IMG/VR virus record: IMGVR_UViG_3300033064_000964
Location: 1-64,000 of that record
Reading direction: 5' to 3' (one strand)
DNA length: 64,000 nucleotides
Source: a virus
Program-made: the position numbers and the translations under genes
Notes under the pieces: model-generated
What the model was told of the DNA's origin: nothing
Seen by the model: the letters and a program-made list of their open reading frames with translations, nothing else
Databases searched by the model: none
Shown: one piece after another, positions 1,723 to 40,534 of the stretch
Layout: the number at the start of each line of letters is the position of its first letter
How positions within the stretch are numbered: position 1 is the first letter of the stretch

Positions 1723-2116
1723 GTACGTCTTCAAGTGCAGCGACGACGAGTGCGGGGCCGGGTTCTTCAAGACCCTGGCCATCGTGAACCGGAACGCCCC
1801 GCAAGACTGTCCCACCTGCGGAGCTGACGCGGACAAGCAGATCGCCTCTGGCGTCGGTGGTGTCCTCCGGGGCGACGTGTGGCCCGGCAAGAACATCCAG
1901 GTCAAGCAGCAGATGGCCGCCCGGCGGGCCAAGGTCGGCGAGCGAGAGCACGTCCTGAAGATGGACGGCCCGCAGTTCGAGCTGGCTCCGAACGTCAACG
2001 GCGAGCGGGTGGACTCGTGGTCGGACGCATCGAAGCTGGCGGCCAGCGAGGGCAAGGACACCCGCGAGTACGACAAGCGTGCTCGCAAGGCCAAGATGCG
2101 GGGTAGCAGGGTATGA
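1715..2116 (+). CDS. FmdB-type zinc-ribbon protein
   Basis: 133 residues starting at an ATG with a strong GGAGGTG ribosome site upstream (1704-1710). The N-terminus reads MPEYVFKC and then has a C-x4-C and a CPTCG pair, the layout of the small FmdB/zinc-ribbon regulatory family. The C-terminal half is charged and ends in a Lys/Arg-rich helix. The stop overlaps the next start (ATGA). A second protein of the same type lies at 34566-34994. The role is unknown; such proteins are common beside phage virion genes. Confidence 0.8.
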   Translation: MPEYVFKCSDDECGAGFFKTLAIVNRNAPQDCPTCGADADKQIASGVGGVLRGDVWPGKNIQVKQQMAARRAKVGEREHVLKMDGPQFELAPNVNGERVDSWSDASKLAASEGKDTREYDKRARKAKMRGSRV

Positions 2117-6265: not shown

Positions 6266-6280
6266 TCAAGGAGACCTCTG

Positions 6281-7213
6281 ATGACCCGCGCATACATCGT
6301 GCTCGCACGGAATGACCTGGAAGACTCGCTCCTCCAGGTGCTCGACCTGAAGCCGAACGCGACACCCTCCAAGGGTCTCCGCGTCTACGAAGGTGTGGCC
6401 CAGGGTGGTTACCAGAGCCACTACCTGCTCGACGGTGTGAACAACACCGTAGGCGCACTGGCCCTGCCCAACGGCCCCGCCGCGATCACCTACGGTCTGT
6501 CGGGCTACTTCCTCGATACCGTCGAGGTGGCGGGCACGAACCGTGCGATCACGGCGGTCATGGCGAACTTCATGGCGGGCGACATCGAGACGCAGGTGGC
6601 GGCTGGTGGCGTGCTCACGGCAGCCTGGGTCAACGCCCGGCTGGTGGTCCGCTGCGGAGCGGCCACGGCTCTCTCCGAGGGCAACGGCACGGCGGCGCTG
6701 GAGGAGATCCTCCGCATCCTCGCGGGCGAGCGGTACCGCGTGCCCGCCAACGCCGTCCTCGAAGATGGTGTCCCGGTCTTCATCGGTGCCCGCCGTGGTG
6801 CCTTCGTGACGGCTCCGGTCATCGAGATGGACGACTCGGTTCGCACGACGTACACCTGGCGAGAGGGTGCGGTCGTCACCACGGACACGGCAGCTCCGGT
6901 GCGTGGTCGCAAGTCCACGTCCCCCATGACCCACATCCGCCCTGGCGAGCCCCGGGTCGCTCCGGTGCAGACCGGCGTGCGGGACACGAACTTCCAGGAC
7001 GTGCGGCGGACCGTGGAGACGGGTGACCTGCACCTGTCGGCCACAGACGGCGTGCTCGCGGAGTTGCTGTCCGCGACCTTCACGTTCTTGAACCCGGCAT
7101 TCACCTACGCTGGTGGGGTCACCCCGGCTCAGACCATCGGTGCTGTCAACATCCCCGCCACGGGCATTGCCCGAGCCGTCGTCGTGTACGACGTGCTCGG
7201 CAACGTCATCTGA
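6281..7213 (+). CDS. Virion-type protein, second member of three-gene family
   Basis: 310 residues with an AAGGAG site upstream. It has the family marks QVLDLKPN near residue 20, EILRILAG-ERYRVP near residue 141 and a C-terminus ending VVYDVLGNVI, close to GVYDDLGNAL in the next gene. It lacks the repeated insert of the 695-residue paralogue. The three genes are separated by only 15 bp each and share a promoter, so they are probably made together. A structural role in the capsid or tail is inferred from context and composition. Confidence 0.75.
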   Translation: MTRAYIVLARNDLEDSLLQVLDLKPNATPSKGLRVYEGVAQGGYQSHYLLDGVNNTVGALALPNGPAAITYGLSGYFLDTVEVAGTNRAITAVMANFMAGDIETQVAAGGVLTAAWVNARLVVRCGAATALSEGNGTAALEEILRILAGERYRVPANAVLEDGVPVFIGARRGAFVTAPVIEMDDSVRTTYTWREGAVVTTDTAAPVRGRKSTSPMTHIRPGEPRVAPVQTGVRDTNFQDVRRTVETGDLHLSATDGVLAELLSATFTFLNPAFTYAGGVTPAQTIGAVNIPATGIARAVVVYDVLGNVI

Positions 7214-7228
7214 TTCAGGAGAACCACA

Positions 7229-8173
7229 ATGGCCAATCGCGTCTTCATTCTGCCGCTGCGTAGCGACCTGGCTGGTGTGGGCCTCAACCTCACCGACCTG
7301 AAGCCGAACGCAGGTCAGAAGAACTCGGTGTACGACGGTACGCCGCAGAACAACTACATCGCCGAGATGCACGACGCCGAAGGCGTCACGGTCGTCAGCG
7401 GGATCGCCTACGTCAGCGGGTCGCTCAACACGACTCTGCTGGCGGCCCACAACGACATCGCTGACGACACCACGGGTGGCGGCAACGACGTGACGGCGAC
7501 GCAGCAGACCTGCTTCGGTCTGGCGGCCTACCTGTTCGACCGCGTGCAGACCGGCGGTGGCGTCGGTGCCGCTCCGATCACCATCGCGCAGGCCAACACC
7601 TGTGCGGGGCTCATCGAGGCGGCAGCCCTGGCGGGCAACGCGCTGACTGAGGCGGCCATCAACATCATCCTCGCCGCGAACATCGCGGGTGCGACGACGT
7701 TGCGGGCCGCTGCTGGTGCCTCCCTGTCCTTCGGGACGGTCGGGGACATCCTGCGAATCCTCACGGGTGAGATCTACCGGACCCCGCTCCTGACGATCCT
7801 CGGCACACAGGCCAACGTCTTCCTGGCTCTCGCCGGTCGGCAGGCCCTCGTGACGGCTCAGACCCCGGCGTTCATCACGGCCCAGGGTCAGTTCTACGCC
7901 TCCGGTGGCTTCCTGGCCGCCACCGACACCGGCTACCGGGCTCGCCCGACGCTGGTGCCGACCGGGGCGTTCAACATCAGCAACGCCGAGGGCGTCATCG
8001 ACGGCTACAAGGCGGCTCCGGGCATCACGGTGCTCAACCGCAACTTCGCGTACACGGCAGCCACCGTGACGGCGATCCGGCCCCGTGCCCGGCTCATCGG
8101 TGGCGGCAACGTCGCGGCGACCGGCATCGGAGTCGCCATCGGCGTCTACGACGACCTCGGGAACGCGCTCTGA
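7229..8173 (+). CDS. Virion-type protein, third member of three-gene family
   Basis: 314 residues, ribosome site CAGGAG 9 bases upstream. Family marks are LTDLKPN near residue 24, DILRILTG-EIYRTP near residue 173 and the C-terminus GVYDDLGNAL. This is the last gene before a strong hairpin at 8219, which fits the end of a highly expressed unit. Structural role inferred. Confidence 0.75.
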   Translation: MANRVFILPLRSDLAGVGLNLTDLKPNAGQKNSVYDGTPQNNYIAEMHDAEGVTVVSGIAYVSGSLNTTLLAAHNDIADDTTGGGNDVTATQQTCFGLAAYLFDRVQTGGGVGAAPITIAQANTCAGLIEAAALAGNALTEAAINIILAANIAGATTLRAAAGASLSFGTVGDILRILTGEIYRTPLLTILGTQANVFLALAGRQALVTAQTPAFITAQGQFYASGGFLAATDTGYRARPTLVPTGAFNISNAEGVIDGYKAAPGITVLNRNFAYTAATVTAIRPRARLIGGGNVAATGIGVAIGVYDDLGNAL

Positions 8174-15329: not shown

Positions 15330-17804
15330 ATGAAGTTCGCTCTGCACAACTACGCCGGAAAGCCGGTCCGTTTCTTCACCGTGACGCCCCAGGAGGCCAC
15401 GCCGGACAAGGCGGCTGCCGCCTTGTCCCCGAGCCATCACATCGCCATCCTCGACGTGAGCGGCTCGATGTGGGGTGACCTCGATGCGGTGAAGAACATC
15501 ATCGAGAAGGTCTTCACCGCTGAGGAGTTCAACGACCCCTCCATGAAGATCAGCCTGCTGACGTACTCGTCCCACGGCGACGTGCGGGTCCACTTCCAGC
15601 GGGTGACCGTCGAGGACGTGCTGGCTCCGAACAGCCCCCACCTCGCTGAGATCCGCAACCTGCGGACGCGGGGCCTGACCTGCATCTCCCAGGCGCTCGT
15701 CGCCGCAGAGAAGCTGATCGACGACTCCGAGGTCACCTGCATCAGCCTCCACACGGACGGCTACGCCAACGACCGCAGCCCCTACACCGAGGCCCAGGTC
15801 ATCGTGCAGGCCGTCGAGGCCCTGGAGAAGCACCCCAACGCCTTCTGCAACACGGTTGGCTACCGGAGCTGGTGCGACTTCGCCCTGCTGTCGGCCATCG
15901 CCAACCGGCTCTCCGGCAAGTCGATGCAGGCCAGCAACGCCCGCGAGGTCTACATGGCCCTGCACGACACGCAGACCCTCCTGGCGGGCAGCATGTCCCC
16001 CGTCATCGACGCCCCCCTCAACGGCTTCGACTTCATCACCTTCGTCAGCAAGAAGGCTCGCAAGGTGCTCGGCAGCACCCAGGGCCTCACCGTCCGGGGC
16101 CTCTCCGGCGGGGACGACGCCATGATCTACCGCTACAAGGAGGTGGACGAGGCGACCTACAACGCCGACAGCGGTGGGGTCTGTGGTGGGGCCGAGGGTC
16201 TCGATGCGCTCTACGCCTACTGCCGTGCTCAGATCGCGCTGGGGAACCTGAACGCCGCGAAGTACGCGATGGTCAGCACCCGGGTCACGAACCTCATCAA
16301 CACCCACGCCCGCGCTCTGGTCGCTGCCGAGGTCGCCGCGATGGCCACCCGCGTCGAGCAGTTCCTCTTCGAGCCGACCACCATCATCCAGTCCGGCGAG
16401 TACGGACTGGGCGAGACCGGCCCCTCGCTGTTGTCGCTGCTCCAGGTGCTCGACGAGTACAAGAGCAGCCTGCGGGTCAACGTCCGGGACATCCAGGCGA
16501 GCTACAAGCGGCGGGGCCTCAAGCGGGTGCCCGGCACCCGTGACGACCAGGGCAACATCGTGCCGCCGACGCACAAGCTCCAGACGCCCCGCGAGAACAC
16601 GGCGGTCCAGGTGGCCTCCATCGACATCAACCGCGACACGGCGACGGTGAACATCAAGGTCATCGAGGACGGGAAGCTGATGGAGACGGCCACGGGCAAC
16701 CCCGTGGAGGAGATCGCGGGCATCCCCCTCGACCTCAAGAGCTTCCGCAACTACACCCTGGTCGGCGACGGTCAGGTCAACGTGTCGGTCCTGCCCATCA
16801 AGACCAACGACAAGCGGTGCTTCGCGGCCCTCAAGGAGCTGGGTGTCATCACGGCGGACAGCTTCTTCCCGTCCGAGCAGCACGACATCGACATCAGCCA
16901 GATGCCGCTGGTGGACTACGACCAGGACTTCGCCGGGACCCCCGTGGACACCTTCGACTTCCTGGCCAAGCTCACAGTGCTCCAGAAGCTCCTCGCGGGG
17001 CTGACGGCGGGTGAGTCGGAGTCGCTGACTGCCGAGCAGATCGATGCGCTCAAGGGCTGCTACATCACCCCGGCCCTGTACTTCTCGCCCCCGACGACGA
17101 CGCCCTACACGGACCTCGCGGAGGCCCAGGCCAAGGGCGAGGTGGACACCTACCTGTCCTACAAGGTGAAGCTGGGCACCCCCGAGATCACGAACCTCGG
17201 CAAGCTCAAGAGCGGCAACGCCTACCTCCAGCGGCGGTTCACCCTCACGGACGCGAACGGCGACGAGGTGAAGAAGCCGACCCTCAAGGACTGGTGGGAG
17301 GACGGCAGCAAGTGGGCGGTCAAGGCCCTGTCCGCCAAGACGAAGCTCGACGCCGTGGACGACCTGACGTTCCCCATCTACGAGGACTTCTTCGGCTTCG
17401 GTGGTGGTGCTGCCCTCGCCGAGGTGCTGGGCATGGCCCAGGCCGACACGGATGCGTTCCACGATGCCATCAGCGGCGGACTGGACCGCGACGAGGCGGT
17501 GACGGTGTTCAAGGAGGCGTTGGGGGACGTGAACGCCAGCATCGACCGGACCTACGCCGAGAACATCTGCCCGCTGGCCTTCTACGTCGGTGCCACCGGA
17601 CTCGTGCCGGACACCCTCGGGGCGACCGCGATGACCCCGGACCAGCTCGTCGCCAAGTTCCCGACGACCAAGCTGGCCAAGGCCGAGCAGGAGGGCACGT
17701 TCTACGAGGTCTCCGGCGGTCTGCTGCTGGGCGTCTTCGTGAAGGGCGAGCACTTCTCGACTGAGAGCGGGGTCAAGGCCGCGTCCGCCCTCTCCGCGAA
17801 CTGA
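15330..17804 (+). CDS. Von Willebrand factor A domain protein
   Basis: 824 residues. The VWA domain covers roughly residues 35-220 with the metal-ion (MIDAS) motif DVSGSM at residues 43-48, a Thr in the RTRGLTCI loop and the acidic LHTDGYAND segment. A complete MIDAS implies metal-dependent protein binding. The remaining ~600 residues are unrecognised and include a conserved-looking YEDFFGFGGGAALAEVLG segment. There is no signal peptide or membrane span, so it is a cytoplasmic or virion protein. VWA proteins are often paired with MoxR-type ATPases, but none is visible here. Stop overlaps the next start. Confidence 0.85.
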   Translation: MKFALHNYAGKPVRFFTVTPQEATPDKAAAALSPSHHIAILDVSGSMWGDLDAVKNIIEKVFTAEEFNDPSMKISLLTYSSHGDVRVHFQRVTVEDVLAPNSPHLAEIRNLRTRGLTCISQALVAAEKLIDDSEVTCISLHTDGYANDRSPYTEAQVIVQAVEALEKHPNAFCNTVGYRSWCDFALLSAIANRLSGKSMQASNAREVYMALHDTQTLLAGSMSPVIDAPLNGFDFITFVSKKARKVLGSTQGLTVRGLSGGDDAMIYRYKEVDEATYNADSGGVCGGAEGLDALYAYCRAQIALGNLNAAKYAMVSTRVTNLINTHARALVAAEVAAMATRVEQFLFEPTTIIQSGEYGLGETGPSLLSLLQVLDEYKSSLRVNVRDIQASYKRRGLKRVPGTRDDQGNIVPPTHKLQTPRENTAVQVASIDINRDTATVNIKVIEDGKLMETATGNPVEEIAGIPLDLKSFRNYTLVGDGQVNVSVLPIKTNDKRCFAALKELGVITADSFFPSEQHDIDISQMPLVDYDQDFAGTPVDTFDFLAKLTVLQKLLAGLTAGESESLTAEQIDALKGCYITPALYFSPPTTTPYTDLAEAQAKGEVDTYLSYKVKLGTPEITNLGKLKSGNAYLQRRFTLTDANGDEVKKPTLKDWWEDGSKWAVKALSAKTKLDAVDDLTFPIYEDFFGFGGGAALAEVLGMAQADTDAFHDAISGGLDRDEAVTVFKEALGDVNASIDRTYAENICPLAFYVGATGLVPDTLGATAMTPDQLVAKFPTTKLAKAEQEGTFYEVSGGLLLGVFVKGEHFSTESGVKAASALSAN

Positions 17805-18064: not shown

Positions 18065-18594
18065 CTGGATACTGGCTTCTTGTGTGCCACCGGGTCGGGG
18101 ACTACGTCCTTCAGTCCGATTGGATGGCCAGTGAGAAGACGAAGGGGTGGCGGCCCGCAGTAGCCCACGCCACGGTCTACACCTTGCCGTTCATGCTGCT
18201 GTTCGGATTCCAGTGGGAGCCGCTGCTCCTCATTGGTGGGACGCACCTCATCATCGACCACTACCGGCTGGCCCGGTACATCTGCTGGGCGAAGAACATC
18301 ATCTCCCCGAAGCGGACGGTGACCTTCACGCCGGACCCCAATGGGCCGTGGCACGAGAGTCCCGTCGATGGGTGCATGGTGGACGACAAGGGCATCTACA
18401 CCTGTACGCATCACCCTGAAAAGCGGGCGGTGCGGCAGGAGACGAAGTGGCGGCACCCGTGGTCGGAGTGCTCCGGGACCGGGTACCAGGAGGACAAGCC
18501 GCTCTGGCTGACCCTCTGGCTGATGATCATCACGGACAACGCCATGCACCTCGCCATCAACGGCATCGCATGGGAGATGTGGGGCGCAGGATGA
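18061..18594 (+). CDS. DUF3307-type membrane protein
   Basis: 177 residues from GTG 18061 (a GTG at 18055 is possible). It opens HRVGDYVLQSDWMASEK, then a hydrophobic helix (YTLPFMLLFGF), HLIIDHYRLARYICWAKN, PWSECSGTGY and a second hydrophobic helix near the C-terminus. The order HxxxDYxLQxxW...HxxID matches DUF3307 phage proteins as I remember them. It should be an inner-membrane protein with several spans; function unknown. Confidence 0.75.
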   Translation: MTGYWLLVCHRVGDYVLQSDWMASEKTKGWRPAVAHATVYTLPFMLLFGFQWEPLLLIGGTHLIIDHYRLARYICWAKNIISPKRTVTFTPDPNGPWHESPVDGCMVDDKGIYTCTHHPEKRAVRQETKWRHPWSECSGTGYQEDKPLWLTLWLMIITDNAMHLAINGIAWEMWGAG

Positions 18595-18893
18595 GTCGAT
18601 TCAACGTGGCTGCGGACAAGGCCGGAGAGGTCTGTGAACGCTTCGGCTGGGACCGTGGCTGGTCGGCCGCTGGGTGCTACCTGCACCTGGAGGTCAGCGA
18701 GTTCATCGAGGCCCTGCGGGGCAAGGGTGACTCGACCCCTCTGGCAGAGGCAGCCGACGTGCTGTTCGTGCTGCTCTCCACGTGCAAGGCCAACGGCCTC
18801 GACGTGGGTGATGTGGTCGCAGCCCTGGACGCCCGCTGCGCTCGGCTCCTGTCCGGGGCCGAGGACGACAAGTACCGCAAGGCCCCGGAATGA
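18591..18893 (+). CDS. MazG-like nucleotide pyrophosphohydrolase
   Basis: 100 residues. A helix with E-x2-E (LHLEVSEFIEALRG) is followed by E-x2-D (LAEAADVLFVLLST), the paired metal-binding motifs of the all-alpha MazG/dUTPase-type NTP pyrophosphohydrolases. The family hydrolyses (d)NTPs to the monophosphate and pyrophosphate. It overlaps both neighbours and directly precedes dCTP deaminase, fitting a phage nucleotide-pool module. Confidence 0.75.
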   Translation: MSRFNVAADKAGEVCERFGWDRGWSAAGCYLHLEVSEFIEALRGKGDSTPLAEAADVLFVLLSTCKANGLDVGDVVAALDARCARLLSGAEDDKYRKAPE

Positions 18894-19591
18894 TCTCGCG
18901 GGCAGCCATCAAGCACCTGATGAAGGTGGGGCTCATCAAGGTGACGCCCGACCCCGTGAAGATCGGGCCGAACTCCATTGACCTGCGGCTCGGGGACACC
19001 CTCCGCATCTACCACAGCACCGAGAACAGGGTCCCCATCACGGACCCCTACCGCGAGGTGCGCTACTGGGCCATCGACCCGAAGAATCCCCCACCCCTGC
19101 TCGACGTGCCGCTGCGGAAGGACGGTCGGTGGCTGCTCATCCCCGGCCAGTTCTACTTGGGCTGCACCGTGGAAGAGACCTACTGCCGTGGGGTCGTCCC
19201 GCACCTTGATGGTCGCTCGACCTGCGGGCGGCTCTCCATCGAGGCCCACAAGACCGCAGGGGTCGGGGACAACGGCTTCCGGGGCCGGTGGACGTTGGAG
19301 ATCGAGGTGACAGAGCCGGTGCTGGTGACGCCGGGTGACCGGCTGTTCCAGATCTACTTCACCCCCGCGTGGGGTGAGGGGCTGGCCTACCTCATCCAGT
19401 CGAGGTTCGACGGCACCGCTGCGTGGTTGAACAAGGACGACCCGAACTACGTGGACATCGGCCCGATGATGCCGGATGGGGAACCCACCGGGACGGCCCC
19501 GCTGCTGGAGCTGGACGACCTCTACGGGGACGACAGCGGGCACCACTACCAGGGCTCCGAGGTCATCCGGGGGCCATCTCCGCTCGACTAG
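18890..19591 (+). CDS. dcd: dCTP deaminase family enzyme
   Basis: 233 residues, somewhat longer than the usual ~190. The core HLDGRSTCGRLSIEAHKTAG and the strand RGRWTLEIEV match the dCTP deaminase/dUTPase fold, with the catalytic Glu in TLEIEV. The usual DPGF turn reads DNGF. The N-terminus IGPNSIDLRLGD is the family signature. Such enzymes deaminate dCTP to dUTP, feeding thymidylate synthesis (ThyX at 25054). The gene is convergent with the viperin-like gene; only 2 bp separate the stops. The Asp-rich C-terminal ~40 residues are extra. Confidence 0.85.
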   Translation: MISRAAIKHLMKVGLIKVTPDPVKIGPNSIDLRLGDTLRIYHSTENRVPITDPYREVRYWAIDPKNPPPLLDVPLRKDGRWLLIPGQFYLGCTVEETYCRGVVPHLDGRSTCGRLSIEAHKTAGVGDNGFRGRWTLEIEVTEPVLVTPGDRLFQIYFTPAWGEGLAYLIQSRFDGTAAWLNKDDPNYVDIGPMMPDGEPTGTAPLLELDDLYGDDSGHHYQGSEVIRGPSPLD

Positions 19592-19593
19592 GG

Positions 19594-20424
19594 CTACCAG
19601 TCGTACTTGCCGCCCCGGCGGTCGAATCGCTCCTGTCGGAAGTCCACCGACGCCCAGGCCTCCTCGACGCCGACATCAAGGATGGACGGGCCGTAGACGT
19701 GCCCTGCTGGCCCACCGGAGTAGAAGCGGCCCAGCGGGTCGATGAGGGCATAGGAGTAGGACATCAGCTCGTTGGTCTCTGCGACCGGGGCGAGGCCGAT
19801 GGAGGCCAGGTCCGTGTGCCGTGCGACCCACGATGCGAACTGCTCGTCGGTGATGAGCAGATCGTCAATGCCGTCGTTCTGCCCGGCGACCGGGAGCACC
19901 TGGAACGCCTTCCAGCGGTCAGGGCGGAACACCCGGATGAAGTCGCTGAAGTCCTCCTGCCAGTTGAAGGCCGTGATGACGCTGTTGAGCTTCACCTTGA
20001 CCCCGGCCTTGCGGCACTTGGCAGCCAGCTTGACCATGCGTTCGACGTGGCCCCACTCGCCTCGACCCAGGCGGACTTCGACCTGTTCGTTGAGCGAGTC
20101 CAGTGAGAGGCCGACCCAGTCGAGCTGGTCAGCGCAGGCGTCGAGCAGGGGTTGGAGCCGGGCTCCGTTCGTGACGATGGTGGTGACCATGCCCAGCTCG
20201 TGGGAGAGCTGGACCAGATCCTTGATGTTCGGGTGGAGGGTGGGCTCCCCGCCGACGAAGGTGATCTTCTCGACCCCGGCGTCCGCAAGCTGGGCGACTA
20301 CCTGCTCGGTCTGGTCGTTGGAGAGTCGCCCGTCCACGTCCTTGAACGTGGAGTAGCAGAAGCGGCACCGGAGGTTGCACTCCTTCAACAGGAAGAAGTT
20401 CACGGCTGGCGGGAGGGTGCTCAC
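19594..20424 (-). CDS. Viperin-like radical SAM enzyme
   Basis: 276 residues, GTG start overlapping the upstream stop. The radical SAM cluster motif CNLRCRFC is at residues 16-23 and GGEP at 58-61. Beyond the general fold it carries marks I know from viperin (RSAD2 and prokaryotic pVips). These are LNSVITAFNWQED (147-158), RPDRWKAFQVL (167-177), ITDEQFASWVARH, SILDVGVEEA (247-256) and a C-terminus ending RGGKYDW. Viperins convert CTP, GTP or UTP to 3'-deoxy-3',4'-didehydro nucleotides that terminate RNA chains. Last gene of a five-gene overlapping operon driven by the GGGCTCAGA-type promoter at 21549. Another radical SAM specificity is possible but the C-terminal marks argue for viperin. Confidence 0.85.
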   Translation of the reverse strand: MSTLPPAVNFFLLKECNLRCRFCYSTFKDVDGRLSNDQTEQVVAQLADAGVEKITFVGGEPTLHPNIKDLVQLSHELGMVTTIVTNGARLQPLLDACADQLDWVGLSLDSLNEQVEVRLGRGEWGHVERMVKLAAKCRKAGVKVKLNSVITAFNWQEDFSDFIRVFRPDRWKAFQVLPVAGQNDGIDDLLITDEQFASWVARHTDLASIGLAPVAETNELMSYSYALIDPLGRFYSGGPAGHVYGPSILDVGVEEAWASVDFRQERFDRRGGKYDW

Positions 20425-20660
20425 TTCGCGGTCACCTTGACCAGCGGGGTTCCGGGGTTGAGTGCCGTGTCCTCCTCGTCACCTAGGATGCAGTGGGTGG
20501 CGTCCACGCTGATGTCCCAGAAGTCGGTGCTCTTGTAGACCTTGCCCCGACCGATCCTGACCTGACCCTCGTTGGCGGCCAGGATGCTCATGTCGTGCTT
20601 CTCGCACAGGGCCATCAGGTCCCGGGCGAACGCTTCATAGTCGGTCAGGACGCGGGCCAT
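20421..20660 (-). CDS. Small phage protein upstream of viperin-like gene
   Basis: 79 residues. The start ATG 20660 overlaps the upstream stop, with GGAG 8 bases before it. Its stop overlaps the GTG of the viperin-like gene, so the two are translationally coupled. Sequence MARVLTDYEAFARDLMALC... with a beta-rich C-terminus; no family recognised. Confidence 0.6.
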   Translation of the reverse strand: MARVLTDYEAFARDLMALCEKHDMSILAANEGQVRIGRGKVYKSTDFWDISVDATHCILGDEEDTALNPGTPLVKVTAK

Positions 20661-22298: not shown

Positions 22299-22493
22299 AT
22301 GGACTGCCGAACACGAATCCAGATCCCACGCACCCGTGAGGAGACCCTTCAGCTCTTCCTCGACGCGGACGAGATGCGGGATGAGGCCAACGACTGGCAC
22401 CCGGACGTGGACGGCCTCCACGACGACGCGGACACCTTGACGGCGATGGCCCACACGGTCATGGCGGCGAACAAGTGGGAGTACCCGGCCTGA
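22299..22493 (+). CDS. Small acidic phage protein
   Basis: 64 residues, CGGAG 7 bases upstream. Acidic and helical (FLDADEMRDEAND, DVDGLHDDADTL). First gene after the divergent promoter; its stop overlaps the next ATG, so it is co-translated with the PP-loop gene. Confidence 0.6.
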   Translation: MDCRTRIQIPRTREETLQLFLDADEMRDEANDWHPDVDGLHDDADTLTAMAHTVMAANKWEYPA

Positions 22494-23881
22494 TGGCACG
22501 ACGACCCCGAACGCTGGTGATCTTGAGCTACGGCCTTGGCTGGGACAGCACCGCCATCCTGGTCCGCTGGCTGCTCGATCCATCCAGCCGAGACTTCGAC
22601 CTCCGCGATCTCATCGTCGTCACGGCGATGACCGGGGACGAGTTCAAGTCGATGGGCGTCCTGGTCGAGAAGTACATCCTCCCCCTGATGCGAGCCCACG
22701 GAGTCCGCTTCGTTCAGGTAGCTCGCGGCGGGGCCAGCACCCACGACGGCGTGACCATCCTCGACGACTCCCGCTCCCCCACGAAGGTTCACCTCGACGG
22801 GGTCTACAAGCTCTCCGACGAGATGCTTGAGTCCGCCACCGTCCCGCAGTTCGGTGGTGCCCGGCTCTGCTCGCAGAAGCAGAAAGGCGTCCCCCTCGAC
22901 TTCATCATCGACAAGCTGACGCAGGGCCGACCGTTCCGACACGTCATGGGCTTCAACGCCGACGAGTTGAACCGGGTCGCCCGCGACGCCAGCTACTCCA
23001 CCGTCACCCGCAAGTCCGAGTACCCGCTGGTCACCTGGGGCTGGGGTCGGGCGAAGCTCTCTGAGTACGTCCGGGACTCCCTCGGGGTCGAGTGGGAGAA
23101 GAGCTGCTGCACCTTCTGTCCGTTCGCTGGCTCCTGCAAGGCAGAGAAGATGGAGGCCCTGACCTCTCGGTACACCGCCGAGCCCGAAGCCGCCGTGCTG
23201 GCCCTGACCATCGAGCGTCGGTCCCTGGCGATGAACGTCCGGCAGCCCCTCTTCGCCAAGACATCCCTGTTCGACGTGCTGGAGCAGACCGACCCCGCGC
23301 TGGTCGCCCTGTTCGAGGCCGACTGGAACTCCGCTCCCGACTGGAGCCTCTACCGTGTCCGCCGCAGCTTCCGTGGAGTCGGGCAGGCCGTTCGCAGCCT
23401 GGAGTGCATCAAGTGGGGGTCGAAGGCCCGGATGCTGGCGGAACTGGCGACCCACGGCGAAGTCGAGTGGACCCACGGTTCGCCACGGGTGCTCGTCCAG
23501 CGCAAGGTCGAGGACGTGTTCCCGGTCAACGAGGACATGTACGTCGTCGCCCCGGCTGGTGTGACCCCGAAGACCAACGCGATGTTCGACGCCTACTGGG
23601 TCCGCACCGGAGAGGTCGAGGCAGCCCGAGCCGCAGGGGCCGATGAGCCTTGCCCGAAGGCACGGGCGATGGGCTTCGTGCTCCGGTACGTCGTGACCCA
23701 CGCGGCCAACACCTTCACCAAGGGCGATGTCCAGCGAGCCGCAGGAGCCTCCGGGGTCTTCACGGCAGAGGCAGGGGACGCCTTCAATGAGCTGAAGGCC
23801 GAGGGCCGGTTCGGCAAGGTCGGCAAGCGCATGACTCTGGCCCCCGCCGCCTGGGGCTCAGTCACCTCCCCATCCCCGTAG
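22493..23881 (+). CDS. PP-loop ATPase of the PAPS reductase family
   Basis: 462 residues. The pyrophosphate-binding loop reads SYGLGWDSTA (about residues 10-19). A cluster CCTFCPFAGSC (about 203-213) supplies metal-binding cysteines, as in the DndC/CysH-like branch of adenine nucleotide alpha hydrolases. The C-terminal ~70 residues (FVLRYVVTHAANTFTKGDVQRA, LKAEGRFGKVG) resemble a fused winged helix. Roles known in the family include sulfate activation, tRNA or DNA thiolation and base modification; which one applies is not visible. Co-transcribed with the small gene upstream. Confidence 0.8.
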   Translation: MARRPRTLVILSYGLGWDSTAILVRWLLDPSSRDFDLRDLIVVTAMTGDEFKSMGVLVEKYILPLMRAHGVRFVQVARGGASTHDGVTILDDSRSPTKVHLDGVYKLSDEMLESATVPQFGGARLCSQKQKGVPLDFIIDKLTQGRPFRHVMGFNADELNRVARDASYSTVTRKSEYPLVTWGWGRAKLSEYVRDSLGVEWEKSCCTFCPFAGSCKAEKMEALTSRYTAEPEAAVLALTIERRSLAMNVRQPLFAKTSLFDVLEQTDPALVALFEADWNSAPDWSLYRVRRSFRGVGQAVRSLECIKWGSKARMLAELATHGEVEWTHGSPRVLVQRKVEDVFPVNEDMYVVAPAGVTPKTNAMFDAYWVRTGEVEAARAAGADEPCPKARAMGFVLRYVVTHAANTFTKGDVQRAAGASGVFTAEAGDAFNELKAEGRFGKVGKRMTLAPAAWGSVTSPSP

Positions 23882-24877: not shown

Positions 24878-25054
24878 CTACTCCCTGGAGACGTGTGGCT
24901 CCGGGAGGGGCTTCCCCGTCTCGTCGATCTGCCCCCAGCCGTAGGCCACGGCCAGGATGTTCGGGTGGGTGTGGCCCCGGGCCGTCCAGTAGGAGGGGTT
25001 CTTCGGGTCGGCCTCGGCCTGGGCCTCCTTGCGCTTCTTCCACCAGCCGAACAT
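24878..25054 (-). CDS. Very small phage protein downstream of ThyX
   Basis: 58 residues beginning MFGWWKKRKEAQAEADPKN and containing YGWGQIDETGKPLPEP. The ATG overlaps the ThyX stop (ATGA) and GGGAGAG lies upstream. Coding is supported by the overlap on the 5' side and the tight spacing on the 3' side. Function unknown. Confidence 0.6.
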   Translation of the reverse strand: MFGWWKKRKEAQAEADPKNPSYWTARGHTHPNILAVAYGWGQIDETGKPLPEPHVSRE

Positions 25055-25953
25055 CACCTCTCCCCCAGGAGGCGTTCGAGCTTCGCCAGCAGCTCTGCCT
25101 TCTCCCGGCCCTTGCCGAGGCCGGACGCTTCGACGGCCTCTTCCTTCCAGTCCGCGAGGACATCCTCGATGGAGGGTCCGTTCGATGCCACCTGTCCCGC
25201 TCCGTAGCTGATGAGCTTGCGGAGGGCATCCACGTCGAACCGGGACAGGTACATGCCGTTGAGCCGGTAGTCCTCGAACGCCTCCCAGGCCCACGGCACC
25301 CAGACCTTCACGATCTCGGCGATGGCGATGGCGTAGGAGCGGATCTCCAACTGCGCGTGCGGGTCGAGCCGGAGGGAGAGGAAGTGGAAGAGGTTGTGGA
25401 GATCCTGGGCCCACACCTTCTTGGTGTAGATGTTCACGGGCAGGGCACAGCGGGCGATCTCTCGGGCCACTCCCGCGTCCAGGGATGCCTCGTAGCTCTT
25501 GTAGGCCGATGTGCAGGTGTCCCGCAGGCGGTTGCGGTACGCCTCGACCGCCTGCTCTTCCATCAAGTCCTCCCGTCCTTGCTTGTTGGTGGCCGACTGA
25601 GCGCGAACGTCATCGGGGGCTGGGATGTAGAACTCCGAGGGGAGGATGCTGTACCGGGCCGACATCTCGTTCAGCGACGCCATGCGATGACGGACCCACT
25701 GTCGTTCCACGAAGATGGGCAGCTTGACCTCCAGACGGATGCGGCACTGCTCGAACGGAGATGTGTGACGGCAACGCAGGAGGTACCGAAGCAGGTGCCT
25801 GTCCCCACTTGTGCGACGGGTACCCTCGGCATAGCTGACGCGGGCGGACTGGACGATGGTGTCGTCATCCCCCATCACGTCCAGCAACATGATGTAGCCG
25901 TGGTCGAGCAGTTTGATGGGCTCCGCGAAGCGTTCAAGATGAGCTGGGATCAT
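25054..25953 (-). CDS. thyX: FAD-dependent thymidylate synthase
   Basis: 299 residues from ATG 25953. The ThyX signature RHRxxSxxxxS appears as RHRMASLNEMS near residues 88-98, followed by ARYS. ThyX makes dTMP from dUMP using methylenetetrahydrofolate and NAD(P)H with FAD. With the dCTP deaminase at 18890 it completes a route from dCTP to dTMP. The gene start is overlapped by 20 bp by the 3' end of a GIY-YIG endonuclease gene. Start chosen for the AAGG site; a longer start inside the endonuclease frame is possible. Confidence 0.9.
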   Translation of the reverse strand: MIPAHLERFAEPIKLLDHGYIMLLDVMGDDDTIVQSARVSYAEGTRRTSGDRHLLRYLLRCRHTSPFEQCRIRLEVKLPIFVERQWVRHRMASLNEMSARYSILPSEFYIPAPDDVRAQSATNKQGREDLMEEQAVEAYRNRLRDTCTSAYKSYEASLDAGVAREIARCALPVNIYTKKVWAQDLHNLFHFLSLRLDPHAQLEIRSYAIAIAEIVKVWVPWAWEAFEDYRLNGMYLSRFDVDALRKLISYGAGQVASNGPSIEDVLADWKEEAVEASGLGKGREKAELLAKLERLLGER

Positions 25954-30172: not shown

Positions 30173-30744
30173 TTGAAGCGGAGGTCACCTGTCAGTGCGT
30201 TCAGATCGCCCTGCCCGACCTGCGGTTGTCCATGGTGAACGGGCAGGTCGTCTACTTGGATGAAGCCGATGCCAAGGCGTCGGTGGACCTTCAACGGGCG
30301 TGGAGGGCAAAGGCCGTCATCGTCAAGTACATCCAGCGATTCAGAGAGCGGAGAGCCGCTCGGCTGGCCCTTCCCGCAGCCCCGGCTGCCTCGATGGTGG
30401 GATTCCTGCCGGAGATGGGCCAACCGGAGCAGACCGTGGTGGTCGATGTCGATGCGATTGCGGCACGGGTCGCAGAGCTGCTGGAGCCCCGCCTTGTCGC
30501 CAGCATCACGGCCTCTGTGGTGGCCGCTCTGCGCTCCGAAGGCCCCGTGGTGACCGTTGGTGCGCCTGTAGCGTCCGCCCCTCCACAGACGGCCTGGGCG
30601 GATGCTCCGGTGTTCATCCCGTCGAGGATCGGCAACGAGCTGGAGGCTAACCTTGAACTCCAGGCGACCACGGCCACTGAGGGGGTAGTGTCTGACGCGG
30701 CTGCTGCCTTGCGGGCGGCCCGGAAGAAGCAGGAGCCGACATGA
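30169..30744 (+). CDS. Hypothetical phage protein, structural cluster
   Basis: 191 residues. N-terminal ~50 residues are compact (LPDLRLSMVNGQVVYLDEADAKAS). The rest is Ala/Pro/Val-rich with a helical segment VDAIAARVAELLEPRLVASI and a basic C-terminus, probably largely extended. Overlaps the next ATG. Function unknown. Confidence 0.5.
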   Translation: MIEAEVTCQCVQIALPDLRLSMVNGQVVYLDEADAKASVDLQRAWRAKAVIVKYIQRFRERRAARLALPAAPAASMVGFLPEMGQPEQTVVVDVDAIAARVAELLEPRLVASITASVVAALRSEGPVVTVGAPVASAPPQTAWADAPVFIPSRIGNELEANLELQATTATEGVVSDAAAALRAARKKQEPT

Positions 30745-31745
30745 GCAAGAAAAAGACCCTCGGGGTCGGGCTGGACATCGGGACGATGAACATCGTCTCC
30801 GCTCGCAGCGTCGGTGGCAGCATCGAGACGAAGCGGATGCGGGACGCCTTCATGTCCATGCCCCCGAACAAGACCCGGATGCTCAAGCTCTCGCAGACCA
30901 GCTTCGTCGAGCGTGAACATGACGTGCTCCTCCTGGGCGACGCAGCGATGGAGATGGCCAACGTATTCGGCGGCAACCCCCGCCGTCCCCTGGCCGGTGG
31001 GCTCATCGCTGCCGGGGAGTCCGATGCCCTGAGCGTGTTGAAGCTCCTGATCAAGAACGTGCTCGGGGAGCCGCAGATCGAGAACGAGGTCTGCTACTTC
31101 AGCGTCCCGGCCCCACCCCTCGACCAGCCCGGCAAGGACATCATCTACCACCGTGGGGTCTTCGAGCGCATCGTCGAGGAGTGCGGGTTCGACCCCTTCC
31201 CCGCCAACGAGGCGATGGCCATCATCTTCTCCGAGTGCGCTGCCGAGGGCTTCAGCGGTCTGTCCTTCAGCTTCGGCTCCGGGATGACCAACGTCGCGCT
31301 CGCGCTGAACACGACCGAGGTGCTGTCCTTCTCCGTCCAGCGAGGCGGTGACTGGATCGATGAGCACGCAGCTCAGGCGGTGGGGATGACCCAGGCTCAG
31401 ATGTGCGCCCTCAAGGAGGGTGGCATCGACCTGATGACCCACGCGACGCAGCCGGAGGAGGCGGTCGCCCTGTACTACAAGGCGATGATCGACTTCGCCC
31501 TGGACCAGGTGGCGGCCCACTTCGTCGCGCAGTCCGGCCAGTTCACCTTCCCCAAGCCCATCCCCATCATCGTGTCCGGTGGGACGAGCATGGCGGGCGG
31601 GTTCCTCGATTTCTTCAACAACGTCTGGCGCAAGAAGAAGCGGAAGTTCCCCATCGAGGTCAGCGAGATCCGCTCGGCCAAGGACCCGCTCAACGCGGTG
31701 GCGTTCGGGATGCTCATCCAGGCGATGCAGGAGTACGAGGAGTGA
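30741..31745 (+). CDS. Actin/Hsp70-fold ATPase
   Basis: 334 residues. Phosphate-1 loop GLDIGTMNI (about residues 9-17), phosphate-2 loop FSFGSGMTNVAL (about 177-188) and adenosine motif IIVSGGTSMAGGF (about 275-287) define the actin/Hsp70/ParM/MreB superfamily. Length is near that of MreB/ParM. It lies inside a virion-gene operon rather than beside a centromere-like repeat. Roles could be DNA or capsid positioning, plasmid-like segregation, or chaperone-like assembly. Starts and ends in 4-base overlaps. Confidence 0.85.
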   Translation: MSKKKTLGVGLDIGTMNIVSARSVGGSIETKRMRDAFMSMPPNKTRMLKLSQTSFVEREHDVLLLGDAAMEMANVFGGNPRRPLAGGLIAAGESDALSVLKLLIKNVLGEPQIENEVCYFSVPAPPLDQPGKDIIYHRGVFERIVEECGFDPFPANEAMAIIFSECAAEGFSGLSFSFGSGMTNVALALNTTEVLSFSVQRGGDWIDEHAAQAVGMTQAQMCALKEGGIDLMTHATQPEEAVALYYKAMIDFALDQVAAHFVAQSGQFTFPKPIPIIVSGGTSMAGGFLDFFNNVWRKKKRKFPIEVSEIRSAKDPLNAVAFGMLIQAMQEYEE

Positions 31746-35224: not shown

Positions 35225-38200
35225 ATGGCTTTCCCCGGTCTGAACTACGCCCCGCCCAACGTCTACACCCGTACCGAGTACGAGAACCCTCTCCAGGGGG
35301 CCATCGAGTCTTTGAAGATCCCGATCTTCATCGGTGAGGGCAACGAGTACCTGTCCCAGGTGGACCTGGAGTGCGTGCGCGGCTCGTCCGCGACCATCGA
35401 CCAGCGCATCGTCGGCGAAGACATGACGGGCCGTGCGGTCGTCAGCGTCTCTGCCACGGGCGTCGTGACGCGGGGTGCCTTCAACGGCGTGCTCAACCGG
35501 GTGCAGGTCCAGAACCTCCCCGTCGTGGACGGCTCCGGTCGGGGCACGACCAGCAACAGCCGCAGCGACGTGACGGTGACCCTGAACGGGCTCCCGGTGG
35601 TCGTGACGGCCCTGGACGGTGCGGCAGGCATCCTGACCCTCGCGCAGTCCCCGGCTCTGGGCGACCTCCTGCGGGTGAGCTACTACTTCAACCGTGAGGA
35701 CACGCTCGTCACGGACGACCTCTCGGAGCAGGTGACCACCCTGGCGGCCCTCATCGAGGCGTCCGTGGGCATCAAGGACGTGAACGCCCCGACGCCGGGC
35801 ACCACGACCATCGACCTGCACGCTGACGTGCTCGGGCCGAGTGGTCAGGTCATCGTCCCGGCGAACAACGTGCTGAACCTGGTCGTGGACGGAACGACGG
35901 TCGCGCTGACGCTGACCCCGAAGACCGACTACACGATGCAGCAGATCTCCAACGTGATCTCGGCTGCGGGCTTCGGGACGTTGACGGGTGCCACCTTCGT
36001 CAACAACCACGGCGAGAGCACTCTCTCGCTGAACGCCGACCACGACCTGACGGTCCTGGAGGGGACGGCGAACGCCCTGCTGGGGCTGGTCACGGGCTCC
36101 GTGAGCATCCGCCGGAAGACCTTCTACACGTTCAACGGCCCCATCGTGGACGGCACCAACGGCGGCGTTACGACGACCGACCCGAGCCACGTCGTCGTCA
36201 AGGTGGACGGCGTGCAGGTCATCCCGACCACCGTGGACGGGGCGACCCGGGCCATCACCCTCGCGCAGGCTCCCGAGGCCGGTTCGACGGTGACGGCGAC
36301 CTACTGGTTCAACACCTGGCAGGACACCTACGACCACCTGGCCCACGTGAACGTCACGAGCGTCGAGCGGGTCGGTGATGTCCCCGGCGGCAGCCAGTAC
36401 ACGCAGGAAGCGGACTTCATCCTCCAGAACGACCGGGTGATGTGGGGCACGGCAGCCTCGGTCGTCAGCGGCATCACGACCACGGGGTCGGAGCTGCTCG
36501 ACGACACGCAGGTCACCCCGACGCTGGTGGACAACCGGACCTTCATGTCCCTCTGCACGCCGGTCACGTCCGCACAGGGCACGGTCAGCACGAGCGACTT
36601 CCAGCTCCCCCTGAGCCCGACGCTGGGCAACGGGCGTTCGACGAGCCTCGGTCAGAGCCTCTTCCAGAGCATCAGCAACAACCGCATCGGCGTCCCGGTG
36701 AACCGGCCCGACGTGGTGGATGTCTACTGGGGCTTCTCGGTGGAAGACGCGCTGGTGCGCGGGCAGGTCGAGGTCATCAAGGTCGAGGGCAGTGTCATCA
36801 CCCTGCCGGTGAACGTCCCGGTCGGGGCCAGCGTCTTCGCCAGCTTCTATCACAACATGATCGTGGACATGGAGTACACGCTGGCCGTGGTCCTGCCCGG
36901 CATCAGCGGCGTGGGCACCTACACCATCGCCGACTCCGCAGGCTCCAGCGTCTTCACGCCGACCTTCGACAACAGCACGAAGTCGGCGGGCCTGACGGGC
37001 ATCGAGATCGTCTTCCCGAGCGGCTCCGAGTTGACCCCGGACCTCCACTTCGAGGGAGGTGCCGGGACCGGCTTCACCGGCCCCATCGAAGAGGTCGTCA
37101 CGGTCACCCTCGCGGCGACCCAGGACACCCCGGCGAAGTTCACGGTCTCCGGCCCCTCGCCCTACGTCTTCGTCCCCGGTGAGTCCGACCTCATCGCCAT
37201 GACGATCAACGGGGACCTGGTCCTCCCGGTCGCGGGCACCGACATGGACGTGCTCTCCGGCGGTGGTCTGGGCGTCATGGCCCACTTCGTCGGCAACGAG
37301 GTGGTCTACCCGGACGGCATCGACTTCGACGCGGCTGACTTCGTGAACGGCAACGAGCAGGTCATCCTCACCCTCGACGCGGTGGAGGTCACGGCGACCG
37401 TCGAGGCCGCTGCGAACGTGACCGTGGACGGTTGGGTCGCGGCCATCAACGAGGCGGCTGACGGCCACCAGGGCGTCGCAGGCGCGGGTGCCCCGGCTAC
37501 CACGACCTTCGAGCTGGCAGCGGGCAGCCGTTCCGCCGTGGACAACTACTACGCCGGGTGGCGGGTGGTCGTCGGCAGCGGTGCCTTCGCCATCACGGCG
37601 GGTTCCATCGGTACGGTCGCCAGCTACGTCGGAGCCACGGGCATCATCACCCTGACGGCGGCCATCGCCGGGGCCGCCATCTTCACGGTGGGCGATCCCT
37701 ACCGCATCTACAACCCCGACACGATGGCCGAGGTCAAGGGAGCCACGCGCTTCAACGGTCCCATCGACCTGTCGGGTGGTGCGGGCTTCGACACCCTGAC
37801 CCTGCGGTTCAACTGTCTCGCCACGGGGGGTGCGGTGAACATCAGTGCCGGTGTGGCGGCCCTGCACGCATCGGTCACCGCTCTGGCGACGGCCCTCAAC
37901 ACGGCCTTCCGTGGGGCCTCCGGCAGCGACATCCTGGTCACCCCGGCGGTCGGCTCCCCCATCGCCCTCGCCATCGTCGGTGATGTCCTCCTCTCGGGTC
38001 TGGACTTCATCTTCACGGCGGACGGCGAGGGTCGCCTGACGGTGGTGGTTCAGCTCCCGGGCCTCTCGGCGGCGGGCTTCCTGGAGTTCGTGGCACAGGG
38101 CGCAGCGGTCGATGACCTGGGAATCCTCGCGGGCTTCGACGTGGGCACGGCTGGCAGCGGCCAGATGAAGCTGAACATCGGCGAGGTGGCGAAGAGCTAC

Positions 38201-40534
38201 CGGCTGACTCAGGGCGGCGTGAACGTCCACGACCGGCTCATCCTCCGCAACCGCATCCACCCCGGCGGCTTCTCCATGAGCGCCCTGGATGCGGTCGGTC
38301 AGTGCCAGCTCCTCGTGGGCGCGGGCTCCGGCAACGCCAAGGCGGGTCTGACGAACGCGGACTACGGCGAGGCGGCCCACGGTGCCACGGTCCACGGGGC
38401 CACGATGGTCGGTCGGGTCGGCTTCGCTGGTGGCACGAACACGGCGGGCGAGCCGCAGGTGACCTTCTACGACGGTACGGGGGCACAGCCCGCGAACAAC
38501 GTCCTGGCCTTCACCCTCGACGGTGTGCCCTTCAGCGTGACGTTCACCTCGTCCGCCACGGGCACGGTGAACATCCTCGGCATCGCGGCGGTCGCGGGCA
38601 ACCGGATCATCCTCCAGATCCAGACGGCCATGGCTGCTCTGCCGGGCGCTCCGTTCGGCAATCTGGCAACCATCCAGGGCGCGAACATCATCCGCCCCGA
38701 GGGTGCGGGCATCCGCATCACCAGCACGGAGATGCACGAGAGCGGCGTCATCGTCATGGGTGGCGGCTCGGCCAACTCGGTACTCGGCTTCACCGAGGGC
38801 ATGGTCGCGGCCCGGCAGCTCGTCACGGCGGGGATGCTGGCGTCGGCCCTGAACTCGCACCGGGAGAACAACATCCCGGACTTCCTGCACGACTTCTCGG
38901 CCATCAACAGCGCGGCTGCTGAGTTCGCTGCACAGGCCATCGCCAAGGTGGTCGAGGACACGGCTTCACGGAAGTTCCTGCACATCGCCTCGGCGGGTCC
39001 GGCCACCAGCGACTACGGCACCGGCTCCACCATCGCCCTGCTGGCGGCCACGACTCGTTCCTGGCTGTTCGTGGGCACGGGCATCGACGAGCTGAGCAAC
39101 GCCGGTTCGGCGGGCGAGGCGGCCCTCAACGGATTCTTCGTCACGTCCTCGGACGGGGTGAACGGGTCGGGTTCGACTGACACCTCGGTCCTCAACGCGG
39201 GCACCGGACAGGATGGGACCATCGGCCAGACGTACCGCGACGCGGTGACGGGCCTGACGTTCACCATCCTGCCTCGCGGCTGGCACGACAACCCGGCGGG
39301 TCCGTGGAACGCCTACCCGGCGGCGGCGACGTTCCGGTTCGCGGTCAGCTCGACGGTCACGACCGACGCGAACATCCCGGTTCGGTCCATCCCCGGTCTG
39401 GAGATGAAGGTCGCCAACACGGCCGGTGTGGGTGCGGGTGACACGGCCATCGTGCAGACGTTCCCGCGAGGGGGCGAAGAGCCCGCCATCGGGGACATCT
39501 ACTACGCGAGCTACGTCTACCAGAAGCAGGATTTCACCACGGCATTCTTCACGAAGATGTCGTCCATCATCGCGGCCTACGGTGCCATCCACCCGGAGAA
39601 CCCGGTGTCGCTGGCGGCCTACCTGGCGATGATCAACGGGGCCGTCCTCGTCGGCGTGAAGCAGGTGCCCCGTGCGACCGGGACCAACTTCGCCAGCATC
39701 ACGACCTACGTGGCGGCGGTCACGGAGCTGGAAGGTGTCCTGCCCGGTCACATCGAGCCGGACCTGATCACTCCCCTGCTCGGGACCTCGACGCAGCTCT
39801 TCCAGTTGCTCGCCCGCAGCAACGACATCCAGAGCAGCATCCGCTACCGCAGCGAGCGCACCAGCGTCATCGGGATGGCGGCGGGCTCGACCGAGGCGCA
39901 GGCGAAGACCCTGGCTGGTGTCCTGTCCAACGACCGGATGCGGGTGGTCTACCCGGACATGGCCCTCATCGACATCGAGGAGGACGACGGGACCAGCAAG
40001 GAGCACCTCATCGACGGCCCGATGCTGGCCGCGATGCTGACCGGCTCCGTGGTCAGCCCGAACTACGACGTGGCCTCCCCCTGGACGCGACGGAAGCTCA
40101 TCGGGCCGAGCCAGCTCGGTCGGACGCTCGACGCCGTGCAGCAGAACCAGCTCGCCCAGGCGGGCATCACGGTGCTGGACGACAAGCCCCCCTTCATCCG
40201 GGTGCGTCACGGTCTGACGACCGACATGACCAGCATCCTGACGAAGACGCCGACCGTCCGGCTCATCGCCGACCACGTGCAGCAGCAGAGCCGGTCCACG
40301 CTGGACCAGTTCATCGGGCTGAAGTTCCTGCCCGGCATCCTCTCGCAGGTCGAGGGGCGGCTGGCCAAGATGTTCCAGACGCTCGTGAAGCAGCAGATCA
40401 TCGCCATCTACACCGGCCTCAAGGCTCAGGTGGATGCCGAGGACCCGACGACGGCCAACGTCGAGGCGTACTACCAGCCGGTCTTCCCGCTGCTCTACAT
40501 CGTCCTGACGTTCCATTTGAGGGCCTCCCTCTAG
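35225..40534 (+). CDS. Giant contractile tail sheath protein
   Basis: 1769 residues, more than twice the ~660 of T4 gp18. The N-terminus (YENPLQGAIESLKIPIF) and the C-terminal ~490 residues are typical of sheath proteins: NDIQSSIRYRSERTSVIGMA, VVYPDM, PPFIRVRHGLTTDM, LIADHVQQQSRSTLDQFIG, ending LRASL. The extra length lies between. It includes repeated beta units with a DGAxxxxTLAQxPxxG...YYFN pattern (about residues 115-165 and 320-375) and further Ala/Gly/Val-rich domains to about residue 1200. These inserted domains probably decorate the tail surface. The sheath assembles around the tube protein at 48553 and drives contraction. Confidence 0.9.
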   Translation: MAFPGLNYAPPNVYTRTEYENPLQGAIESLKIPIFIGEGNEYLSQVDLECVRGSSATIDQRIVGEDMTGRAVVSVSATGVVTRGAFNGVLNRVQVQNLPVVDGSGRGTTSNSRSDVTVTLNGLPVVVTALDGAAGILTLAQSPALGDLLRVSYYFNREDTLVTDDLSEQVTTLAALIEASVGIKDVNAPTPGTTTIDLHADVLGPSGQVIVPANNVLNLVVDGTTVALTLTPKTDYTMQQISNVISAAGFGTLTGATFVNNHGESTLSLNADHDLTVLEGTANALLGLVTGSVSIRRKTFYTFNGPIVDGTNGGVTTTDPSHVVVKVDGVQVIPTTVDGATRAITLAQAPEAGSTVTATYWFNTWQDTYDHLAHVNVTSVERVGDVPGGSQYTQEADFILQNDRVMWGTAASVVSGITTTGSELLDDTQVTPTLVDNRTFMSLCTPVTSAQGTVSTSDFQLPLSPTLGNGRSTSLGQSLFQSISNNRIGVPVNRPDVVDVYWGFSVEDALVRGQVEVIKVEGSVITLPVNVPVGASVFASFYHNMIVDMEYTLAVVLPGISGVGTYTIADSAGSSVFTPTFDNSTKSAGLTGIEIVFPSGSELTPDLHFEGGAGTGFTGPIEEVVTVTLAATQDTPAKFTVSGPSPYVFVPGESDLIAMTINGDLVLPVAGTDMDVLSGGGLGVMAHFVGNEVVYPDGIDFDAADFVNGNEQVILTLDAVEVTATVEAAANVTVDGWVAAINEAADGHQGVAGAGAPATTTFELAAGSRSAVDNYYAGWRVVVGSGAFAITAGSIGTVASYVGATGIITLTAAIAGAAIFTVGDPYRIYNPDTMAEVKGATRFNGPIDLSGGAGFDTLTLRFNCLATGGAVNISAGVAALHASVTALATALNTAFRGASGSDILVTPAVGSPIALAIVGDVLLSGLDFIFTADGEGRLTVVVQLPGLSAAGFLEFVAQGAAVDDLGILAGFDVGTAGSGQMKLNIGEVAKSYRLTQGGVNVHDRLILRNRIHPGGFSMSALDAVGQCQLLVGAGSGNAKAGLTNADYGEAAHGATVHGATMVGRVGFAGGTNTAGEPQVTFYDGTGAQPANNVLAFTLDGVPFSVTFTSSATGTVNILGIAAVAGNRIILQIQTAMAALPGAPFGNLATIQGANIIRPEGAGIRITSTEMHESGVIVMGGGSANSVLGFTEGMVAARQLVTAGMLASALNSHRENNIPDFLHDFSAINSAAAEFAAQAIAKVVEDTASRKFLHIASAGPATSDYGTGSTIALLAATTRSWLFVGTGIDELSNAGSAGEAALNGFFVTSSDGVNGSGSTDTSVLNAGTGQDGTIGQTYRDAVTGLTFTILPRGWHDNPAGPWNAYPAAATFRFAVSSTVTTDANIPVRSIPGLEMKVANTAGVGAGDTAIVQTFPRGGEEPAIGDIYYASYVYQKQDFTTAFFTKMSSIIAAYGAIHPENPVSLAAYLAMINGAVLVGVKQVPRATGTNFASITTYVAAVTELEGVLPGHIEPDLITPLLGTSTQLFQLLARSNDIQSSIRYRSERTSVIGMAAGSTEAQAKTLAGVLSNDRMRVVYPDMALIDIEEDDGTSKEHLIDGPMLAAMLTGSVVSPNYDVASPWTRRKLIGPSQLGRTLDAVQQNQLAQAGITVLDDKPPFIRVRHGLTTDMTSILTKTPTVRLIADHVQQQSRSTLDQFIGLKFLPGILSQVEGRLAKMFQTLVKQQIIAIYTGLKAQVDAEDPTTANVEAYYQPVFPLLYIVLTFHLRASL

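Follow-up and report, generated by a model that had tools for sequence, protein, structure and literature searches.

A viperin encoded at a site of gene exchange in a virus record best read as a large tailed phage

Viperin is a textbook antiviral effector common to animals, archaea and bacteria. Here we describe a viperin gene carried by a virus, located in a stretch of 64,000 nucleotides (the window) that comprises positions 1 to 64,000 of the IMG/VR record IMGVR_UViG_3300033064_000964 (hereafter G000; 132,823 bases, 65% G+C). The gene (19594..20424, minus strand, GTG start) encodes a protein of 276 amino acids (aa) that every sequence-based and modelling test run assigns to the viperin family over its full length, and it stands, together with a small open reading frame (ORF), where related phages hold another gene. 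The enzyme itself looks ordinary; what is new is its carrier, the exchange at its locus and a clade of viperins found in viruses only. Phage-borne viperins are real and occur beyond the window genome too. No description of one was found in searchable papers, most subscription journals lying outside coverage; a preliminary description of this DNA, made from its letters alone, knew of no characterized example.

The preliminary description had recognized viperin motifs in this reading frame, and every one that it quoted is present on the minus strand, namely CNLRCRFC (residues 16-23), NSVITAFN (147-154), RPDRWKAFQVL, SILDVGVEEA and the C-terminal RGGKYDW. The frame is intact over 276 aa, with zero internal stops, and is the sole Pfam radical SAM match across the whole virus record. 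When the protein was compared with radical SAM subfamilies by hmmscan, viperin models ranked best, with the NCBIfam prokaryotic viperin family NF038283 (E 1.2e-79, 267.4 bits versus a curated cut-off of 180) followed by the TIGR viperin model (E 6.7e-49), whereas MoaA, the top non-viperin family, reached 85 bits, far below its own cut-off of 284. The PADLOC pVip models (PDLC02903/02904) gave E 2.5e-78 and 1.3e-77, and the best sequence matches in the PDB were nine solved viperin chains (E 1e-43 to 1e-46), the alignments of which span residues 3-276 and thus include the terminal Trp, while the next family falls to E 2e-13. Judged by the hidden Markov models, PADLOC and the full-length PDB matches, the motif matches lie far beyond chance, and by family the protein is a putative radical SAM synthase of 3'-deoxy-3',4'-didehydro-nucleoside triphosphates (ddhNTPs), as had been proposed.

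Residue conservation was judged on alignments of 37-40 viperins. Both the cluster motif CxxxCxxC and the SAM motif GGEP (G58-G59-E60-P61) are present in the window protein, and the invariant residues are kept throughout (C16, C20, C23, GGEP 58-61, N86, S107, D109, G120-R121, N147, V149, W171-K172, E216, Y225 and R270), as is the GG of the RGGxYxW tail. K53, K145 and R170, each at least 90% conserved over 40 viperins, are likewise kept, and R121 and K172 show no variation over the same 40. Residues K53, R121, K145, R170 and K172 presumably correspond to the basic residues K120, R194, K220, R245 and K247 that bind the nucleoside triphosphate (NTP) in mouse viperin, a pocket assignment made by homology. 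An AlphaFold2 model built on a 37-sequence alignment has a mean predicted local distance difference test score (pLDDT) of 95.8 and a predicted template modelling (TM) score of 0.92, and its viperin fold covers the C-terminal part including RGGxYxW. The sequence and structure checks by which the preliminary description could have been refuted came out in its favor, as viperins are the best matches, the pocket residues are kept and the fold is that of a viperin. The top 30 matches in a structure search of the PDB were all viperins, the best being CTP- or UTP-bound crystals (TM 0.91-0.94 by query length), with the fold of the model nearest to the CTP-bound ones; SkfB, SuiB and MoaA rank later (TM 0.64-0.74). 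In a library of predicted viral structures, the best 50 matches listed included none at viperin level, the highest TM score among them being 0.63 and the identity at most 20%.

With prokaryotic viperins (pVip), the window protein shares a full-length match above cut-off and all conserved residues, at up to 55% identity, yet it is encoded by a phage and not by a cell. With animal and fungal viperins (PDB 6q2p, 6q2q, 9dfn, 7n7h) it shares the core fold and the C-terminal GG-x-Y-x-W, but identity is 33-36% and the phage protein, like prokaryotic viperins, begins at the core. The radical SAM core is also found in further phage proteins, such as that of Campylobacter phage CP220, but these are at most about 34% identical to it, mostly over part of the protein.

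The genes around the viperin gene show that its place is one of exchange. The order in the window is a dCTP deaminase-like gene (18890..19591, plus strand; Pfam DCD, E 3.5e-28), viperin, the small ORF of 79 aa (20421..20660, minus strand) and a conserved phage gene (20660..20932, minus strand). The deaminase-like gene is convergent with viperin, and the other two lie upstream of viperin in the same direction, the 3' end of the 79-aa ORF overlapping the viperin start by 4 bases and the conserved gene overlapping the 79-aa ORF by 1 base. A further conserved phage gene (21580..22161, minus strand; 49% identical in contig L195) served as outer synteny marker. Four further virus contigs were recovered through a VWA-domain protein described below; a search for relatives with the dCTP deaminase gave no match. 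The related phages compared at the locus are L195-L198. L195 and L196, in which the VWA protein is 71% identical to that of the window, give identical matches and look like one phage. Here the deaminase, which is 58-68% identical in related phages, ends in GPSPLD as in the window, and is followed by a gene of 304 aa and then by the conserved gene (61% identical in L195), and viperin was not found anywhere in either record. In L197, a homologue of 302 aa, 53% identical to the 304-aa protein of L195, lies at the same place beside the deaminase. This alternative gene of about 303 aa (L195 13185-14099 and L197 14125-15033, minus strand), which the 3' end of the deaminase gene meets in the relatives, occupies the place of viperin and is unrelated to it; it belongs to no Pfam family, has distant homologues in actinophages (Bifidobacterium, Streptomyces and Corynebacterium phages) and could be a competing cargo or defense gene. 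The 79-aa ORF has no Pfam match above cut-off and no phage match, and was not matched in L195-L198. Since the flanks are shared and the gene between them differs, the arrangement argues for an exchange of cargo in which viperin and the 79-aa ORF stand where relatives hold another gene, and against an assembly chimera. Anti-phage genes at exchangeable sites of phage genomes are also known from the P2/P4 hotspots, in the description of which viperin is named only in the reference list of the main text (PMC9122126). A functional link between viperin and the dCTP deaminase was considered and dropped, as relatives carry the deaminase without viperin.

G000 is best read as part of a large tailed phage, because it encodes a contractile tail sheath protein (35225..40534, plus strand; 1769 aa, phrog_2839, E 1.1e-22) and a DNA helicase (PHROGs), and because it shares genes with the contig G018 and with G021, which bears terminase and portal genes; the claim of the preliminary description that the carrier is a phage is borne out by the same evidence. 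Over the first 76 kb, G018 has most genes in common with G000 and in the same order, more than 40 in all and many of them 60-87% identical, with the sheath at 77%. The sheath and many structural genes also have counterparts in the 266 kb contig G021 (mostly 30-62% identity), where genes for terminase, portal, DNA polymerase and a UvsX-like recombinase were found as well. In G000 itself, no terminase, portal or capsid was matched by the Pfam terminase families or PHROGs; the Pfam terminase families gave a match in a single record out of 18, and phage nature was therefore judged by PHROGs and synteny. Endolysin and holin matches, which are weaker, and homing endonucleases complete the picture, along with genes of nucleotide metabolism, namely the dCTP deaminase-like gene, a MazG/PRA-PH-like nucleotide pyrophosphohydrolase (18591..18893, plus strand; Pfam just over cut-off) and the thymidylate synthase ThyX (25054..25953, minus strand; Pfam Thy1, E 1.1e-50). 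The VWA-domain protein (15330..17804, plus strand; 824 aa, Pfam VWA_2, E 2.7e-8) has counterparts of 70-71% identity in three related virus contigs, and one of 48% in the 266 kb contig.

Viperins occur in other viral contigs as well, about 15 more being present in IMG/VR. None was found in 50,697 GenBank phages, where 65 matched records turned out to hold the other radical SAM proteins mentioned above, and a scan of virus contigs with the window protein as single sequence gave no match, so that an alignment query was needed to find the viperins of IMG/VR. This query returned one fragment besides 16 full-length viperins, and two more came from a second query. Nine of the rows (L015-L019, L022-L024 and L028) form a virus-only clade with support of 100/100, to which the later-found L227 and L230 also belong; its members are phage-borne like the window protein, but stand on a separate branch from it. 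When the large proteins of five contigs of this group, one of them that of the fragment, were pooled, terminase and portal were matched by at least three proteins each, with further matches to DNA polymerases and primases; only the terminase of G004 was assigned to its contig. Within about 8 kb, the neighborhoods in the contigs of this clade share almost nothing besides viperin, and at E 1e-6 none of their other genes is shared by the window phage. The clade members in the alignment all have Ser in place of Asn at the column of N9 of the window protein (P0001), which itself keeps the Asn. The L014 viperin is 52% identical to the window protein, and a bacterial identity of its contig was considered but rejected, since a terminase large subunit is encoded there. 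L020, L021 and L029 form a further group that is labeled viral by IMG/VR only, six large proteins of one contig having given no packaging or structural match, and the short contigs L025-L027, on a distant branch, were left out of the count of phage-borne viperins.

The nearest cellular homologue of the window protein, 55% identical, comes from a Pseudomonadota metagenome-assembled genome, followed by proteins from Nostocales (47-50%) and Planctomycetota (48-49%). In the tree, the window protein lies near the Pseudomonadota protein with only moderate support, and its branch is long, at 0.8 changes per site. A tree constrained to unite it with the virus-only clade is worse by 36 log units and disfavored by the approximately unbiased (AU) test (p=0.042), and one that unites all phage viperins is worse by 76 log units and rejected (p=0.0037), whereas the test does not reject its union with L020/L021 (p=0.377). 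As a single origin is rejected, at least two acquisitions of viperin by phages are likely.

According to reviews, prokaryotic viperins make ddhCTP, ddhGTP and ddhUTP, by which RNA chains are terminated in T7 infection (PMC12926258; PMC11249213). Our proposal for the window protein, to which we give slightly better than even chances, is that it is a working ddhNTP synthase, an exchangeable cargo from a prokaryotic viperin lineage, that excludes competitor phages with their own RNA polymerase. The phage would have acquired the gene from such a lineage and would keep it as exchangeable cargo within a neighborhood of nucleotide metabolism. The [4Fe-4S] radical SAM enzyme would convert a ribonucleoside triphosphate, drawn from the host supply as no homologue of the partner kinase was found in G000, into a chain-terminating ddhNTP. 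Phages that co-infect or arrive late, with an RNA polymerase of their own that discriminates less, would be blocked by the resulting pool, while the host RNA polymerase, which the carrier phage seems to need, would keep working. The data establish membership of the family, intact residues, a predicted viperin fold, a phage setting and gene exchange at the locus, and from there catalysis, the choice of NTP and competitor exclusion are inferred. The host enzyme is reportedly spared by prokaryotic viperins in the 2021 work of Bernheim. No T7-like RNA polymerase was found in G000, G018 and G021, with T7 as positive control, nor in 19 carrier or relative records in a run without a working control, and no multisubunit RNA polymerase beta subunit was found in the 19 records, many of which are fragments (controls positive). 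Since no phage RNA polymerase was found, the carriers seem to rely on that of the host. ddhNTPs would be tolerable for a phage of this kind but not for a rival that brings its own polymerase, and exclusion of competitors is therefore preferred over host takeover.

Several points weigh against this proposal. The nearest related phages have the locus but no viperin, and the gene is therefore dispensable. As G000 covers a genome only in part, a lysogeny module or an RNA polymerase may be encoded beyond its ends. The substrate is not readable from sequence. A nucleotide kinase gene adjoins the nearest Nostocales viperins, but none lies beside the window viperin, and phmmer searches with two of these Nostocales partner kinases found no homologue in G000, although such a neighbor accompanies no more than 15% of viperin genes in bacteria (PMC11249213).

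Of the three roles offered in the preliminary description, exclusion of competing phages fits best, while shutdown of host transcription or regulation of the phage's own fits worse, as a phage-encoded RNA polymerase was not found and the host enzyme is presumably needed. A takeover of the host, in which viperin slows host transcription or drains host NTPs and S-adenosylmethionine and so frees resources for phage replication, would suit a gene that sits among the dCTP deaminase, MazG-like and ThyX genes; we regard it as unlikely, since the phage would then block itself, the host polymerase is said to be spared, and relatives with the deaminase but without viperin indicate that the pair is no fixed pathway. 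Somewhat less likely again is the recruitment of the enzyme to a new job, such as supplying a nucleotide analogue to the DNA or RNA chemistry of the phage or regulating how the phage itself is transcribed. Nucleotide-modifying enzymes are numerous in phages, and the consistent Asn-to-Ser change at the N9 column hints at some divergence in the virus-only clade, but the window protein retains N9 and the other conserved residues, its fold is nearest to CTP-bound viperins, and unrelated phages share viperin alone nearby, which points to a self-contained function. Of similarly low probability is a passenger gene that is functionless in the phage or benefits only the host during a carrier state, as one might suppose from its single occurrence at a locus where relatives hold another gene; against this, the reading frame and the conserved residues have stayed intact despite the long branch, and unrelated phages have captured viperin repeatedly (AU p=0.0037 against one origin). 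A bacterial source of the gene, through DNA joined to a viral contig by misassembly or filed as one in error, would agree with the lack of matched packaging and capsid genes in G000 and with a nearest cellular homologue of 55% identity, but is largely refuted and very improbable, as independent phage contigs keep the gene order on either side and G021, a relative, encodes terminase and portal.

If competitor exclusion is the role of the window protein, a virus that keeps viperin, and a virus-only clade in unrelated phages, would turn a cellular antiviral effector into a viral weapon. Phages probably took up viperin more than once, most likely for use against rival phages. The broader idea, that phages acquired viperins at least twice, keep a lineage of their own and fight other phages with chain terminators, so that viperin chemistry would serve phage-phage warfare too, is put forward tentatively, at a little under even chances. 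The phages predicted to be sensitive are those with their own RNA polymerase, phage viperins are new candidate ddhNTP synthases, and the findings suggest that phages may help to move viperins between prokaryotes.

Some further features of the phage were observed. The sheath protein is unusually long, its sheath match being confined to the last ~350 residues, and several proteins of more than 1000 aa are encoded after its gene, including, past the window, one of 3709 aa (G000 65565-76694, plus strand). The VWA domain is N-terminal in the 824-aa protein, the gene of which is among the best conserved of this phage group. A Volactin-type actin homologue (30741-31745, plus strand; PF25216, E 3.4e-69) is 85% identical in G018 and 59% in G021. 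A 462-aa protein (22493-23881, plus strand) has no Pfam family above cut-off, and may be one of two G000 proteins matched by the phosphoadenosine phosphosulfate reductase PHROG. Neighboring paralogues lie at 2113-4109 and 4178-8173 (plus strand), namely two genes that begin with MSSPFHTYAG and three that cross-match each other in relatives; they possibly encode variable surface or fiber proteins.
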